From the NCBI GenBank assembly GCA_027485075.1, contig JAIXRT010000172.1, positions 1 through 13,799 on the forward strand: DNA of 13,799 nt, in the 5' to 3' direction. The position numbers and the translations under genes were made by a program. A model generated the notes under the pieces. It saw only the letters and a list, made by a program, of their open reading frames with translations. It made no database searches and was not told the origin of the DNA. Positions 7,212 to 11,767 of this stretch are shown here, one piece after another (within the stretch, counting starts at the first letter, position 1; the number at the start of each line of letters is the position of its first letter). Origin of the DNA: Cytophagaceae bacterium. GTDB taxonomy: Bacteria > Bacteroidota > Bacteroidia > Cytophagales > Spirosomataceae.

Positions 7212-7227
7212 TGGATTGGAATTAAAT

Positions 7228-9471
7228 ATGTTTAGAGGTATCGTCTTTTGTTTGTTGGTTTCTATGTCTGCGGTTGCGCAGGTCGAATTCCCCATTACGT
7301 TGGGTTCGAAGAAGATCGCTTCAAAGGATTTCGTGAATGATTACCGGAAGTTGTTAGAAAGCGATAGTATCAAAGCTGATAACAAGCAGAAATTTTTATC
7401 GGACTACATCGATTATCAACTTAAGTTGATGGCTGCTGAAGAGGCCAAAATTGCTACTTCGCCTGGGTTTCAGGATGAATATCAAAGTTTTCGTAAGGAA
7501 TTAGCCAGTCCGTATTTGATAGATACGGAGAAAACGGAAACGTTAGTTCGTGAGGCCTATGCGCGGTTAAAATTTGAAAAGCAGATTGCCCAAATTATGG
7601 TCAAAGTTCCGGCGAATCCTTCCGCTGCAGATACCTTATTAGCCTTTCAAAAAATCAATAACATTCGTACAAGGTTGTTGGCAGGTGAGGCTTTCGATGT
7701 CTTAGCAAAGAAATATTCAGAGGATGATTTATCCGCTCCCAAAGGTGGTTCGTTAGGTTATGTGACCAGTTTACAATTGCAATATGCTATTGAGAATGCC
7801 GTATATGCGTTGGACTTGAATGGTGTTTCACCTATCGTGCGGACGGAAACGGGCTATCATTTGGTTAAAGTATTGGCTATACGGCCTAATCAGGGTAAGA
7901 TTCGATTAGCGCATATTTTAGTATCAGTGCCAGTCAATGCAGCGACCAATTTGCAAGTAGATGCGAAGAATCGGATTGATCAAGTTCAAAAATATTTAGA
8001 GAAGGGTGATGATTCATTTGAATTGATTTGTAAAAATTACTCGGAGGATCCGTATTCCAAGGGTCGTGGTGGTGAATTACGCCGCTGGTATTATTCGTCG
8101 GATTTGAGTGAGGAATTGCAGAGTCAATTATTTTCTATCCAACGTTTAGGAGATTTTACGGCACCAATTCGAACAAATTTAGGTTGGCAAATTTTCAAGC
8201 TATTAGACAAAAAACCGCTGTTAAGTTATGAGGAGATGGCGGAATACATTCGTCAAAAAGTCATGACTGATCCAGAGCGTGTTGCGATGATTCGTCGGTC
8301 CTTTATGACGCGTGTACGCGCTGAAAATCAGGTGGTTATTGTAGAAGCTGCGAAAAAGATAGCCTTGGAGCGTTTTGCACAGGACCGAGTAGGCGATGAA
8401 TATTATTTAAAAATGCCTTTGGTGCAGATCGGGCAAAAGAGCTGGACCGTACAAGATTTTTATACGTTTATTATAGCCCAGCAAAAACGTAAGTTGAAGG
8501 CTTTAGGTTATTTACCATCCGTGCCGGAGCTTGTCTATTTAGAGGAGTTTGTGGACAATCATACAATGACGGTGGAAGAGCAGCATTTGGAGACAAAATA
8601 TCCAGCTTTTCAGGAACAGATGAAGGAATTTTATGAAGGTTCGCTCTTCAGTAAAATTGTTGAGCGGGCGATTTATGAGCCTTCATTGGATTCGTTAAAT
8701 CAGCAAAAATATTTCATGGCGCATGCGTCTGAATATACCCTGCCTACGCGTGCACAGGCGAAGATTGTCAGTGCTGATTCCCCCAAAACTCTAGCTGAAG
8801 CTTTGGAATTAGTTAGTCAAGCACCTTATGTGATGAATAAGCGCTTGCCGGATGTCACGTTTGGATTGGGTAAAGTGGAGATATCAGAGGGGATGAATAA
8901 GATCCAACAAGAATTATTTTTATTGATGGCGAAGAACCGCGATTACGTCGTGGAGATTTCGGGGCATCAAGATGCTTCGGAGGCGGATACGCTGGCAGAT
9001 GCACGCGTCAATGTTTTGGTTAAGTATTTAATGAAAAAGGGGATTGGGTCTACGCGTATTATTGAGAAGATGGAGGGGAGTTTGAAGCCTGTATCCAAAA
9101 CAGATAAGAGCAAAAATGCCCGGGTTTCTTTTCGATTTTTCTCACAATCCATGGAAGATGTTGTCAAACGCTTCAATGCGGTAAAACCGATGACGCTGGT
9201 CGCAGAGGAAGGATTGTATGTGAAAGGTCAGCAACCTTTATTGGATACGATGCCTTGGGAGGTCGGGAAAAAGACGTTGGAATTGGACGGGCGTCAGGTG
9301 TATATTGAAATTCGTGCGATTGAACCTGAGCGTTTAAAGCGTTTTGATGAATCGCGGAGTTCAGTTATTCGCGGTTTACAGGCACAACTGGAACGTGATT
9401 GGTTGGCTAGTTTGAAACAAAAATATCCTGTTCAATTAGATCAGGAAGAGTTAAATCGTTTGATGCAATAG
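7228..9471 (+). CDS. periplasmic parvulin-type peptidylprolyl isomerase with embedded OmpA-like domain
   Basis: 747 residues from ATG 7228. A TTG four codons upstream (7216) is rejected because the ATG begins a clean signal peptide, FRGIVFCLLVSMSAVAQ. After a helical N-part come two parvulin domains: ~118-217 (QIMVKVP, KYSEDDLSAPKGGSLGY, GYHLVKVLA) and ~222-327 (RLAHILVSVP, NYSEDPYSKGRGGELRRW, GWQIFKLL). A third, diverged part follows. Residues ~541-638 read like an OmpA C-terminal domain: VTFGLGKVEI, VVEISGHQD with D582, ARVNVLVKYLMKKGI with R593, and NARVSFRF. The C-terminus (LERDWLASLKQKYPV) matches the usual Bacteroidota PpiC/SurA-like ending. Likely role: folding of outer-membrane or secreted proteins, perhaps wall-associated. 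SurA follows five bases later, so the two are cotranscribed. Confidence 0.88.
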   Translation: MFRGIVFCLLVSMSAVAQVEFPITLGSKKIASKDFVNDYRKLLESDSIKADNKQKFLSDYIDYQLKLMAAEEAKIATSPGFQDEYQSFRKELASPYLIDTEKTETLVREAYARLKFEKQIAQIMVKVPANPSAADTLLAFQKINNIRTRLLAGEAFDVLAKKYSEDDLSAPKGGSLGYVTSLQLQYAIENAVYALDLNGVSPIVRTETGYHLVKVLAIRPNQGKIRLAHILVSVPVNAATNLQVDAKNRIDQVQKYLEKGDDSFELICKNYSEDPYSKGRGGELRRWYYSSDLSEELQSQLFSIQRLGDFTAPIRTNLGWQIFKLLDKKPLLSYEEMAEYIRQKVMTDPERVAMIRRSFMTRVRAENQVVIVEAAKKIALERFAQDRVGDEYYLKMPLVQIGQKSWTVQDFYTFIIAQQKRKLKALGYLPSVPELVYLEEFVDNHTMTVEEQHLETKYPAFQEQMKEFYEGSLFSKIVERAIYEPSLDSLNQQKYFMAHASEYTLPTRAQAKIVSADSPKTLAEALELVSQAPYVMNKRLPDVTFGLGKVEISEGMNKIQQELFLLMAKNRDYVVEISGHQDASEADTLADARVNVLVKYLMKKGIGSTRIIEKMEGSLKPVSKTDKSKNARVSFRFFSQSMEDVVKRFNAVKPMTLVAEEGLYVKGQQPLLDTMPWEVGKKTLELDGRQVYIEIRAIEPERLKRFDESRSSVIRGLQAQLERDWLASLKQKYPVQLDQEELNRLMQ

Positions 9472-9476
9472 GAAAA

Positions 9477-10847
9477 ATGAAAAATATGAAATTGAAAAGT
9501 ATAGTAATGGGATTAGGTTTGTGGCTAGTGGCGCAGGTTTCTTTTGCGCAGGAGGTTACGGAGAAGGGCCCGGTTTTGGATAAGATTATTGCCAAAGTAG
9601 ACAACTATTACATTTTACGTTCTGAGGTGGAGCAGCAGTATCAGCAGTATCAAACTAGCGGTCAGCCTAATACACCAAATCGCTGCCAAATTTTGGAGGG
9701 ATTAGTTGTTAATAAGTTGATGCTTGCTAAAGCGGAAATTGACTCGGTGATTGTGGATGACAAGCGAATTGATGCAGAGATGAATTCACGGATGGAGCAA
9801 ATGGAACAACAGTATGGAACGGCAAAGAATATTGTGGAAGCGTTTGGTAAGCCTATTGTGACCTTAAAAGAAGATTTACGTACCTCGTTGAAAGAGCAAT
9901 TGACTGCACGTAAGATGCAGGAGAAAATTACGGATGGTGCGCGCATAACGCCGAAGGAGGTGGAAAAATTCTTTAAGCGTATCCCGACGGACTCGTTGCC
10001 GTATTTACCTTCGGAAGTTGAGATTGGTCACATTGTGCGATTAGCACAACCAAATAAATTCCAAAAGGATGAATTGGTGAGTAAGTTATTGGATTACAAG
10101 AAGCGGGTTGAGAAGGGAGAGCCCTTTGAGGAATTGGCGAAATTGTATTCGGAGGATTTAGGTAGTGGTAAGCGTGGTGGAGATTTAGGGTTTTCTAAGC
10201 GTGGTCAAATGGTGGCTCCTTTTGAGGCGGCTGCCTTGAAGCTTAAGCCAAATCAATTGTCGGATGTGGTGGAAAGTGAGTTTGGCTTTCACTTGATTCA
10301 GTTGTTAGCGGTTCGTGGACAAGAATACCAAGCCCGTCATATTTTATTGCGTCCAGATTATCAGAAATTGGATGTGACGGAACCTACGCGTTTTTTGGAT
10401 AGTATGCGTGTTTTGATTCAACGTGATTCAATTTCATTTGATAAAGCAGCACGTAATGTATCCGAGGATAAGTTGACACAAGACGCAGGTGGATTACTGA
10501 TCGACATGGCGTCACGTTCTACGCGTATGCCGTTTGATGGTACAATGGAGCCAGGTTTATATTTCTCGATTGATTCCATGACGGTAGGTACCGTTTCCAA
10601 GCCTATTCCTTACCGAACAGAAGATGGCCGCAGTGCGATGCGAATCTTATATTTTAAGGCGAAGTATCCTCCTCATTTTGCGAATTTAAACGATGACTAT
10701 CAGAAAATATCTGGTATTGCCTTGACGCAAAAGAAGAATGATATGATCGAAAAATGGTTTTTGAAAGCCAAAGATGATGTCTTTATCTTTATCGATGATG
10801 AGTATAAAGACTGTAAGGTGCTGGAAGGGAGCGTTATAGAACGTTAG
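9477..10847 (+). CDS. surA: SurA-like periplasmic chaperone / peptidylprolyl isomerase
   Basis: 456 residues. Signal peptide LKSIVMGLGLWLVAQVSFAQ, then a SurA-type N-terminal chaperone region (~30-175). It opens with DKIIAKVDNYYILRSEVE and includes ILEGLVVNKLMLAKAE. Parvulin 1 spans ~180-283 (EIGHIVRLA, LYSEDLGSGKRGGDLGF, FGFHLIQLLAVRG). A diverged parvulin 2 starts at ~286 (ARHILLRP) and runs to ~395. It ends in a WF...DDVFIFIDDEYKDC tail common in Bacteroidota SurA. The protein escorts unfolded beta-barrel proteins through the periplasm. Start: ATG 9477, with a second ATG at 9486 giving nearly the same protein. A short AGGA precedes it. It lies 5 nt after the parvulin/OmpA gene. Its TAG stop lies inside the left arm of the composite repeat. 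Confidence 0.93.
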   Translation: MKNMKLKSIVMGLGLWLVAQVSFAQEVTEKGPVLDKIIAKVDNYYILRSEVEQQYQQYQTSGQPNTPNRCQILEGLVVNKLMLAKAEIDSVIVDDKRIDAEMNSRMEQMEQQYGTAKNIVEAFGKPIVTLKEDLRTSLKEQLTARKMQEKITDGARITPKEVEKFFKRIPTDSLPYLPSEVEIGHIVRLAQPNKFQKDELVSKLLDYKKRVEKGEPFEELAKLYSEDLGSGKRGGDLGFSKRGQMVAPFEAAALKLKPNQLSDVVESEFGFHLIQLLAVRGQEYQARHILLRPDYQKLDVTEPTRFLDSMRVLIQRDSISFDKAARNVSEDKLTQDAGGLLIDMASRSTRMPFDGTMEPGLYFSIDSMTVGTVSKPIPYRTEDGRSAMRILYFKAKYPPHFANLNDDYQKISGIALTQKKNDMIEKWFLKAKDDVFIFIDDEYKDCKVLEGSVIER

Positions 10848-10871
10848 ACGTTGGACACTAGACTTTTGACT
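10844..10871 (+). repeat. heptad repeat block, left
   Basis: Four 7-bp units in phase, TTAGACG, TTGGACA, CTAGACT and TTTGACT, share the pattern NTNGACN. The block begins one base before the surA stop codon and runs up to the 27-bp hairpin arm. Confidence 0.7.
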
Positions 10872-10875
10872 GTAG

Positions 10876-10902
10876 AGACGCGATACTTCGCGTCTTTTTT
10901 TT
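10876..10902 (+). terminator. intrinsic terminator of surA
   Basis: AGACGCGA (10876-10883), loop TACT, TCGCGTCT (10888-10895), then seven T (10896-10902): an 8-bp GC-rich stem plus U-tract, 28 bp after the surA stop. It is part of the larger palindrome, so the RNA could fold as this small hairpin or as the 27-bp stem. Confidence 0.75.
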
Positions 10903-10910
10903 GTAAATGT

Positions 10911-10933
10911 AAAAGACGCGAAGTATCGCGTCT
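10911..10933 (-). terminator. intrinsic terminator of thyA (mirror copy)
   Basis: On the minus strand the same AGACGCGA-TACT-TCGCGTCT hairpin occurs (10933 down to 10914) and is followed by only three further T (10913-10911) before ACATTT. It serves the thyA side of the convergent spacer. The U-tract is shorter than on the plus strand, so it may be weaker. Confidence 0.6.
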
Positions 10934-10937
10934 CTAC

Positions 10938-10976
10938 CATATTTCCAGCGTCCAATGTCCAGCGTCCAACGTCTAA
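10938..10976 (-). repeat. heptad repeat block, right
   Basis: Read on the minus strand: TTAGACG, TTGGACG, CTGGACA, TTGGACG, CTGGAAA, five units in 7-bp phase. On the plus strand this shows as a 14-bp tandem copy (10945-10958 and 10959-10972) with one mismatch. It starts one base before the thyA stop on that strand and mirrors the left block. Confidence 0.7.
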
Positions 10977-11767
10977 ACAGCCACCGGAGCTTTAATCGCC
11001 GGATGTGGATCATAGCCTTCTAGGGTGAAGTCTTCATATACAAAATCAAGAATATCTTTTTTCGCTGGGTTGAGGTGCATGGTCGGCAATGGGCGCGGGC
11101 TACGGCTTAATTGAATTTCGACCTGCTCCATGTGATTGCTATATAAATGCGTATCGCCGCCGGTCCAAACAAAATCGCCTAATCCTAAGTCGCATACCTG
11201 CGCAACCATCATCGTTAAGAGCGCATAAGAAGCGATATTAAATGGGACGCCTAAAAACACATCTGCTGATCTTTGGTATAGCTGACATGATAATTTGCCA
11301 TCAGCCACATAGAATTGAAAAAATGCATGGCAAGGCATTAAAGCCATTTTGGGTAATTCAGCCACATTCCATGCACTGACGATGATTCTGCGGGAATCCG
11401 GATTCGTTTTCAGCGCGTGAATCACTTCTTTAATTTGGTCAATTACCTGACCGTCAGCACCTTCCCAAGAGCGCCATTGCTTTCCATAGACTGGACCTAA
11501 ATCACCGTTTTCATCCGCCCATTCATCCCAAATACGCACACTGTGTTCTTTCAAGTATGCAATATTTGTATCTCCTTTTAAGAACCAAAGCAATTCGTGA
11601 ATGATGGATTTTAAATGTGTTTTTTTTGTCGTTACAAGCGGGAATCCTTCGGCTAAGTTAAAGCGCATTTGGTAACCAAAAACACTCGTGGTTCCCGTTC
11701 CCGTACGGTCCGATTTAAATGTTCCGTTTTGTTTGATATGGGTTAATAAATCTAAATATGCTTGCAT
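10973..11767 (-). CDS. thyA: thymidylate synthase
   Basis: 264 residues, the same length as E. coli ThyA. It methylates dUMP to dTMP using methylenetetrahydrofolate, in the cytoplasm. Motifs: SDRTGTGT (19-26), the catalytic cysteine C146 in [14 protein letters not shown]126-R127 ([11 protein letters not shown]), [30 protein letters not shown], and the C-terminus [14 protein letters not shown]. It is complete and ordinary. The start lies one base after the OsmC-family stop (TAACATG), and it is the last gene of the minus-strand trio. The TAG stop falls inside the right arm of the composite repeat. No folA (dihydrofolate reductase), the frequent partner, is present in the window. Confidence 0.97.

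Follow-up and report, generated by a model that had tools for sequence, protein, structure and literature searches.

A head-to-head pair of GTAG-tagged REPs between gene-end heptamer arrays in the convergent surA-thyA gap of a Cytophagaceae bacterium

Results

Architecture of the convergent gap

The window, i.e. the whole analysed stretch of 13,799 nucleotides from a Cytophagaceae bacterium, contains two genes that converge on a compact set of repeats. The open reading frame at 9477–10847 of the plus strand encodes a peptidyl-prolyl isomerase of the SurA/PpiC type (456 aa), whose best match to the NCBIfam peptidylprolyl isomerase models had an E value of 1.9e-32, all such matches being under the curated cut-offs. 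The opposite open reading frame, thyA (10973–11767, minus strand), encodes a thymidylate synthase of 264 aa and exceeds the cut-off of the corresponding NCBIfam model (E 8.4e-149). Directly upstream of the surA-like gene, at 7216–9471, lies the coding region of a 751-aa protein. It has two stretches of the PPIC rotamase type and one resembling OmpA, which scores 26.1 bits against the Pfam cut-off of 27.2. In what follows G000 denotes the window's own genome and other G numbers denote its relatives, while C stands for contigs and L for loci.

Across 133 bp (10844–10976) a heptamer array is followed by a GTAG hairpin, seven T, a spacer, an inverted hairpin and an inverted heptamer array. The perfect 27-bp inverted repeat with a 12-nt loop, which the sequence-only reading had placed inside a 13-bp outer repeat, was confirmed in its coordinates: its arms occupy 10872–10898 and 10911–10937, are 27 nt long, 100% complementary and spaced by 12 nt. 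Each arm is itself a hairpin repeat, and the two were also detected as a 20-nt direct repeat (80%). The left hairpin, REP 1 (10872–10895, plus strand), delimited by sequence, inverted-repeat analysis and genome copies, consists of GTAG and AGACGCGA-TACT-TCGCGTCT, that is an 8-bp stem with a 4-nt loop, and is followed by a tract of seven T at 10896–10902. REP 2 (10914–10937, minus strand) is an identical 24-nt unit with only three T behind it on the minus strand. Both copies carry GTAG directly 5' of the perfect or near-perfect hairpin of about 20–40 bp that characterises REPs of the GTAG type, and they face each other in opposite orientation as nearby copies of such REPs do. The inner palindrome is, therefore, two identical GTAG-tagged REPs placed head-to-head; dimers of REPs are called BIMEs or REPINs.

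The outer arms are perfect over 13 bp (10844–10856 and 10964–10976) and can be extended to 27 nt at 85% (10844–10870 and 10950–10976). They are arrays of 7-nt repeats, one per gene, and each of them includes a stop codon. The left array, TAGACGT TGGACAC TAGACTT TTGACT (10845–10871, plus strand), starts with the stop codon of the surA-like gene (10845–10847); the right one, which reads TAGACGT TGGACGC TGGACAT TGGACGC TGGAAAT on the minus strand (10942–10975), starts with that of thyA (10973–10975). With 10844–10976 folded as a single RNA strand, the energy was −74.7 kcal/mol; 200 dinucleotide shuffles gave −27.1 ± 3.2, and none of them equalled the native fold (z −14.9).

A scan for intrinsic terminators called the left REP with its tail (10874–10897), this being one call against 0.4 ± 0.9 expected and so a weak signal if taken alone; REP 2 with its three T was not called. 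As far as can be judged from its sequence, REP 1 would qualify as an intrinsic terminator, having a GC-rich hairpin and then a T run. The identities of REP and terminator are compatible, and the left REP, together with the T run behind it, may, on this slight signal, be regarded as terminator-like as well. At least five T within 8 nt are mildly commoner after the REPs of the genome (18/41) than at a control position before them (11/41), and the idea that a T tail is a fixed part of the REP was dropped. In Rfam nothing exceeded the gathering score, and seven sub-threshold microRNA matches were taken as chance hairpin matches.

Copies and distribution of the REP

When the 141 bp around the element were compared with the window's own genome by BLASTN, 141 matches were reported with E values of up to 10, a number that does not give the copy number because matches overlap and a palindrome matches itself on both strands. 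Copies were counted with the pattern GTAGAGACGCGA-N(2-12)-TCGCGTCT, the reversed pattern serving as a control. It had 41 matches in G000 and none in the control, and a version shorter by one base gave 44 matches at approximately 28 separate places (estimated from 43 of the 44 entries), copies within one gap being mutually dependent. Many dispersed copies, as anticipated from the sequence alone, are thus present, and most of them are extragenic: 17 of the 41 lie in convergent gaps, 17 in tandem gaps, none in divergent gaps, six at contig edges and one inside an ORF call. Divergent gaps make up 30% of the intergenic bases in the G000 sample, and the absence from them of all 34 REPs for which both neighbouring genes were called corresponds to p 5e-6 under the assumption of independent copies, although the copies do cluster. 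Further head-to-head neighbours were found on contigs C54, C131, C132, C157 and C173 of G000.

The pattern occurs in 19 of 38 genomes of the genus, G000 among them, and in 21 of 296 genomes sampled from the phylum, representing 14 of 140 genera; the control was zero in both sets. Contigs of named genomes contributed at least 114 stretches with it. Carriers among the matches listed were Mucilaginibacter, Hymenobacter, Spirosoma, Cytophagaceae/Cytophagales and Bacteroidetes MAGs only. Within the window's genus most loops are TACT or TACC (again among the matches listed), and carriers outside it frequently have others. Palindromes of the GTAGAGACGCG type, which the earlier reading had mentioned as dispersed repeats of other bacteria, do therefore exist in other Bacteroidota; the string GTAGAGACGCG itself was not found in the literature searched, most subscription journals being outside its coverage.

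RAYT genes flanked by the REP in relatives

The NCBIfam profile REP_Tyr_transpos, which describes REP-associated transposases (RAYTs), matched in 26 of 38 genomes of the genus and exceeded its curated cut-off in three of them. Most of the loci examined in the genus had no GTAGAGACG. Flanking by the same REP was found in five relatives, where some of the REPs deviate from the consensus by at least one base. On contig C42 of G011 the order is +,+ | RAYT | −,−, and on contig C2 of G001 it is +,+,− | RAYT | +,+,−,−,− with another minus copy farther out. Among the at least 114 named loci a RAYT stands between REPs in three: L341 (Mucilaginibacter aurantiaciroseus), L293 (Mucilaginibacter sp.) and L370 (a Bacteroidetes MAG). 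The five proteins share an invariant HxH (H86, H88) and Y159, so that by sequence they would possess the HUH motif and the catalytic tyrosine of this class. Their joint profile had as its best PDB match E. coli TnpArep (4er8, E 9e-5 over 35 residues), and REP_Tyr_transpos matched 5/5, member 1 at 60.1 bits, which is under the cut-off of 80. Pfam returned zero matches for the two RAYT proteins tested. In the Mucilaginibacter gene of L293 a REP-like 26-mer (1477–1502) lies in frame and codes for part of a loop that separates conserved blocks. Literature combining the full name of the RAYT with Mucilaginibacter was not found, with most subscription journals outside coverage.

The association with a RAYT proposed for the window's palindrome thus holds for relatives, while a REP-flanked RAYT was not found in the assembly of G000 itself. 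Its completeness is 87%, and assemblies are liable to break at repeats; absence of the gene is therefore unproven. In G000 there is no more than a distant relative (C86, E 2.4e-5), with no such REPs nearby. With the G011 RAYT as a query, G000 gave no match, G001 a protein of 64% identity and other genomes at most 41%. In the assemblies of the REP-rich genomes G043, G023 and G014 a REP-flanked RAYT was not found either.

Two other families were considered in the search for the RAYT. Y1_Tnp (PF01797) was rejected as a RAYT finder: it produced one match in G000, under cut-off (E 0.15), and over cut-off it occurs in 11 of 38 genomes of the genus, with GTAGAGAC in 0/20 loci examined. A 197-aa Y1 family present in 25 of 38 genomes was dropped as a candidate cognate RAYT since its loci, where scanned, lack such a REP; among the REP-positive genomes 16 of 19 have it and among the REP-negative ones 9 of 19, a weak association that shared ancestry confounds. 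G000 (C86:1743–2336) and 24 other genomes of the genus encode a Y1-type protein (NHYH...YIHANP) in a single or few copies, without GTAGAGACG REPs where scanned.

The same gap in related genomes

Of 39 genomes searched, 36 have a ThyA match. The gap was examined at the 22 loci that belong to the window's genus, with the window's own locus among them. The two genes are less than 500 nt apart in 11 of them; the other 11 have an intervening gene or sequence, or the locus ends. An ATPase-like gene separates thyA and the surA-like gene in about half of the loci of the genus (L040, L042, L044, L045, L047, L050–L053), and at several of them its stop nearly touches the thyA stop, with no arrays seen there.

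The REP pair is present in 3 of the 11 gaps (G000, G006 and G023) and absent from the other eight. Copies in G006 are each about one base off and those in G023 are more degenerate. The gap of G012 has no hairpin of the REP kind, and G003, G020 and others have different terminator-like hairpins. By ThyA identity to G000, G012 (97%) and G003 (95%) are the next nearest and G023 (88%) is farther, so the sister sites without the pair that the sequence-only reading advised looking for do occur. Because the nearer G012 and G003 have no pair and the farther G023 has it, the pair was probably gained or lost at this gap more than once; presence in G023 and absence from G012 and G003 can be read as loss just as readily as gain. 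None of the gaps compared revealed an insertion with target-site joints.

The arms are of the TAGAC type in G000, G006, G012 and G023, and other genomes use their own dialects: TAAGAGG in G003, CAAAG in G020, ATAGAGA in G002, TAAAGC in G013 and TTAAGAG in G011. Left and right arms are nevertheless alike in 9 of 11 species, G022 and G007 being unmatched. The diagonal sum of left-right scores was 244 against 122 ± 21 on permutation (0/20000), and when each dialect was represented by a single species (seven chosen representatives), only the observed order among 5040 attained the observed value. It had been supposed that the outer arms belong to the REP unit. They are instead separate 7-nt repeats, present here also in G020, G002, G007, G013 and G022, genomes with 0 matches to the window's REP pattern.

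Comparable data were obtained for the gap between pdhB and an HtrA-like gene, for which 30 loci from 37 genomes with a match were examined; 29 convergent gaps were in range and their arms were judged by eye. CAGT-type arms were seen in G000, G006, G012 and G023, and in eight genomes of the group around G007 the arms are layered and enclose a different palindromic core. Heptamer arms were lacking in 17 of 29 genomes, nine of which have little beyond one plain terminator. The arm matching is weaker than at the surA-thyA gap (247 vs 215.8 ± 10.6, 82/20000). Some of these gaps thus have heptamer arms and others none, so that within the genus individual sites gain or lose such arrays. Among the loci L434–L463, those of the genomes around G007, which have no GTAGAGACG REP (for example L439 of G007 and L449 of G020), display a core of the GGTATCGCC...GCGGATACC type flanked by heptamer arms, and in places arms of two dialects are nested there like the layers of an onion.

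Heptamer arrays at gene ends

Gaps of at least 60 nt were compared in samples of G000, G012 and G007 that total 1.05 Mb. Period-7 arrays were present in 16 of the 40 convergent gaps, against 11 of 132 in tandem and 4 of 86 in divergent position; the convergent gaps had other periods more rarely (period 6, 1/40; period 8, 4/40; period 9, 2/40). When arrays were oriented by their heptamer, using short heptamer libraries compiled from earlier results for the dialects, 34 of the 38 arrays that had a neighbouring gene on the relevant side faced the 3' end of that gene (expected 0.43, p 4e-9). Out of 11 neighbouring array pairs 10 point inward, nine are convergent and eight belong to the same dialect. 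Heptamer arrays, consequently, prefer gene 3' ends and have one polarity. In the at least 114 named loci, which had been chosen for their REPs, period 7 was the commonest (78 arrays against 4–31 for periods 5, 6 and 8–11). Detection of this period is threshold-dependent, and the G007 sample contains one array from the surA-thyA gap itself: at the strictest setting 400 kb of G007 gave five arrays (two in the Markov control) and 83 kb of G000 gave three (none in the control), and with ORFs included period 9 in G007 (21 arrays) exceeded period 7 (19). For this reason the heptamer claim rests on the comparison of gap types. Period-7 arrays inside ORFs amounted to 2/14, 7/21 and 6/19. Genes were ORF calls of at least 90 aa (80 for REP placement and 100 for the test of TAG stops, see below), and the genomes share ancestry.

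In the 50 nt before GTAG, sense heptamers were found for 11 of 41 REPs and antisense ones for 0/41, the background being 16 of 302 windows; REPs and heptamers therefore share sites. Arms on both sides at that score were registered only for the window's own pair (2/41 REPs).

The idea that heptamers act as fail-safe stops in every reading frame met with mixed results and was dropped. Stops per 100 nt were 10.2 in sense and 8.1 in antisense for 34 arrays of the genus, and 9.9 and 6.1 for 33 arrays of named records; the sense strand was richer in 20 and the antisense strand in 10 cases in the genus (p 0.10), with 23 and 7 in the named records (p 0.005). In the column-permuted controls, 1 of 300 and 53 of 300 trials, respectively, attained the sense value. 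This test used gene orientation alone, and the sense strand was more than half purine in 25/34 and 26/33 arrays. TAG was the stop codon in 7 of 21 array-bearing genes and 154 of 860 others (p 0.08). At L309:5087–5217 (Mucilaginibacter phyllosphaerae) a near-perfect (GGTTAGA)n of about 17 units begins right after a gene and runs to the contig end.

Discussion

Tandem 7-nt units dispersed in intergenic DNA are known in cyanobacteria as STRR heptanucleotide repeats. The arrays described here are like them in being tandem, dispersed and 7 nt in period, a likeness drawn from the description. For Bacteroidetes, the only paper on heptamer repeats among the matches listed was PMC4679880 (most subscription journals being outside coverage). 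Its TAACTGA repeats are similarly intergenic 7-nt tandem repeats with mixed heptamers and changes in steps of 7 nt, and some are from Bacteroidetes; in the available part of that paper they are represented by one heptamer located, in the type genome, mostly upstream of start codons. The window-type arrays differ in having several dialects, in being placed at gene 3' ends and in forming inverted pairs, often in convergent gaps. With units TAGACGT/TGGAC at stop codons they resemble the TAACTGA family as it appears there and are not members of it (MacGregor 2015, PMC4679880).

The REPs have closer counterparts. GTAG REPs and BIMEs associated with RAYTs (PMC3733652, as far as its available part goes) share with the window's family the GTAG tag, the short perfect hairpin, the joining of two oppositely oriented units into dimers, the large number of dispersed copies, post-gene sites in convergent and tandem gaps and a REP-flanked RAYT, here seen in relatives. 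That part of the survey assigns GTAG repeats to Proteobacteria, Cyanobacteria, Chloroflexi and PVC, and Bacteroidetes appear in it only under CGTC repeats; in contrast, the window's family belongs to Bacteroidota and is situated between heptamer arrays. Subclasses 2.4 and 2.6 of TnpA-REP, described for Bacteroidetes in the available part of PMC6006769, have the HxH, WQ and Tyr motifs in common with the RAYTs found here. Subclass 2.4 combines canonical long GTAG REPs with a REP sequence inside the gene, and the L293 RAYT with its in-frame 26-mer is similar; by motifs alone (N/DH-V/L/I-H, WQ and mostly YIYDNP) the RAYTs of the relatives fit exactly no single subclass as given there.

We consider with good confidence that two independent repeat systems meet in this convergent gap: a BIME- or REPIN-like pair of GTAG REPs and heptamer arrays of gene 3' ends. 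That two head-to-head REP-like copies had settled at a convergent gene end was already suggested from the sequence, and the dispersed copies together with the RAYT-REP association in relatives bear this out. It is quite improbable that all 133 bp form one mobile unit with the heptamers as terminal inverted repeats around a REP core. Such a unit would explain why left and right arms agree in 9 of 11 species, why heptamers precede GTAG in 11 of 41 REPs and always in sense, and why in the pdhB gap of the G007 clade two-dialect arms are nested, as judged by eye, around another core; yet 30 of 41 REPs have no heptamers, two-sided arms at the score used belong among the 41 to the window's pair only, and arms of other dialects stand at the surA-thyA gap without this REP. 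Very improbable is an ordinary long bidirectional intrinsic terminator of non-mobile origin. The convergent position, the T tract and the ordinary-looking terminators in the same gap of several relatives agree with it, but a 24-nt hairpin repeated about 41 times in the genome, found in other genera and flanking RAYT genes is hardly expected from it, nor is the lack of the hairpin pair in 8 of 11 compared gaps.

That the outer arms are selected because they pair into a long structure where the two genes converge, with the sequence free to vary if pairing is kept, seems unlikely to us, even though this view predicts just what the permutations revealed at the surA-thyA gap, i.e. arms matched within species and changed between them, and is in line with the fold of 10844–10976, to which the inner repeat also contributes. 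G022 and G007 do without matching arms at this gap, the match at pdhB is weaker with 17 of 29 genomes armless by eye, and some gaps pair unlike dialects (L102, L137, L112). Moreover, termination at the inner terminator would leave no single RNA with both arms. A bolder proposal can be offered only tentatively: a dedicated, still unnamed process of Bacteroidota might write strand-oriented 7-nt arrays at 3' ends up to the stop codon and rewrite both convergent arms together, in a dialect of the species' own for each gap, and REPs would land there.

For two meeting systems, the following course of events can be suggested. A RAYT, formerly present or residing elsewhere in the lineage, would have brought the REPs and, by analogy with known REP-RAYT systems, may have moved them as single-stranded hairpins. 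The heptamer arrays would grow by slippage and be tolerated or favoured at gene ends. Copying between strands is known as quasi-palindrome template switching; this process or a joint arrival may keep the arms alike, selection for pairing being a further candidate cause. Transcription of the surA-like gene most likely ends at REP 1 and the T tract behind it, as the predicted terminator signal suggests, and REP 2 with three T may weakly terminate thyA. Taken as a whole, the composite probably serves no single function.

The palindrome is a known kind of probably mobile repeat. The heptamer system is poorly understood, its arrays being fast-changing and largely unexplained. A dispersed palindrome of Bacteroidota is now linked with a RAYT gene lying between its copies, so that its mobility can be put to a direct test. 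The oriented and fast-changing heptamer system at gene ends, whose two arms change jointly, may help to explain heptamer repeats that had been recorded without an explanation in Cyanobacteria, Beggiatoaceae and Bacteroidetes.
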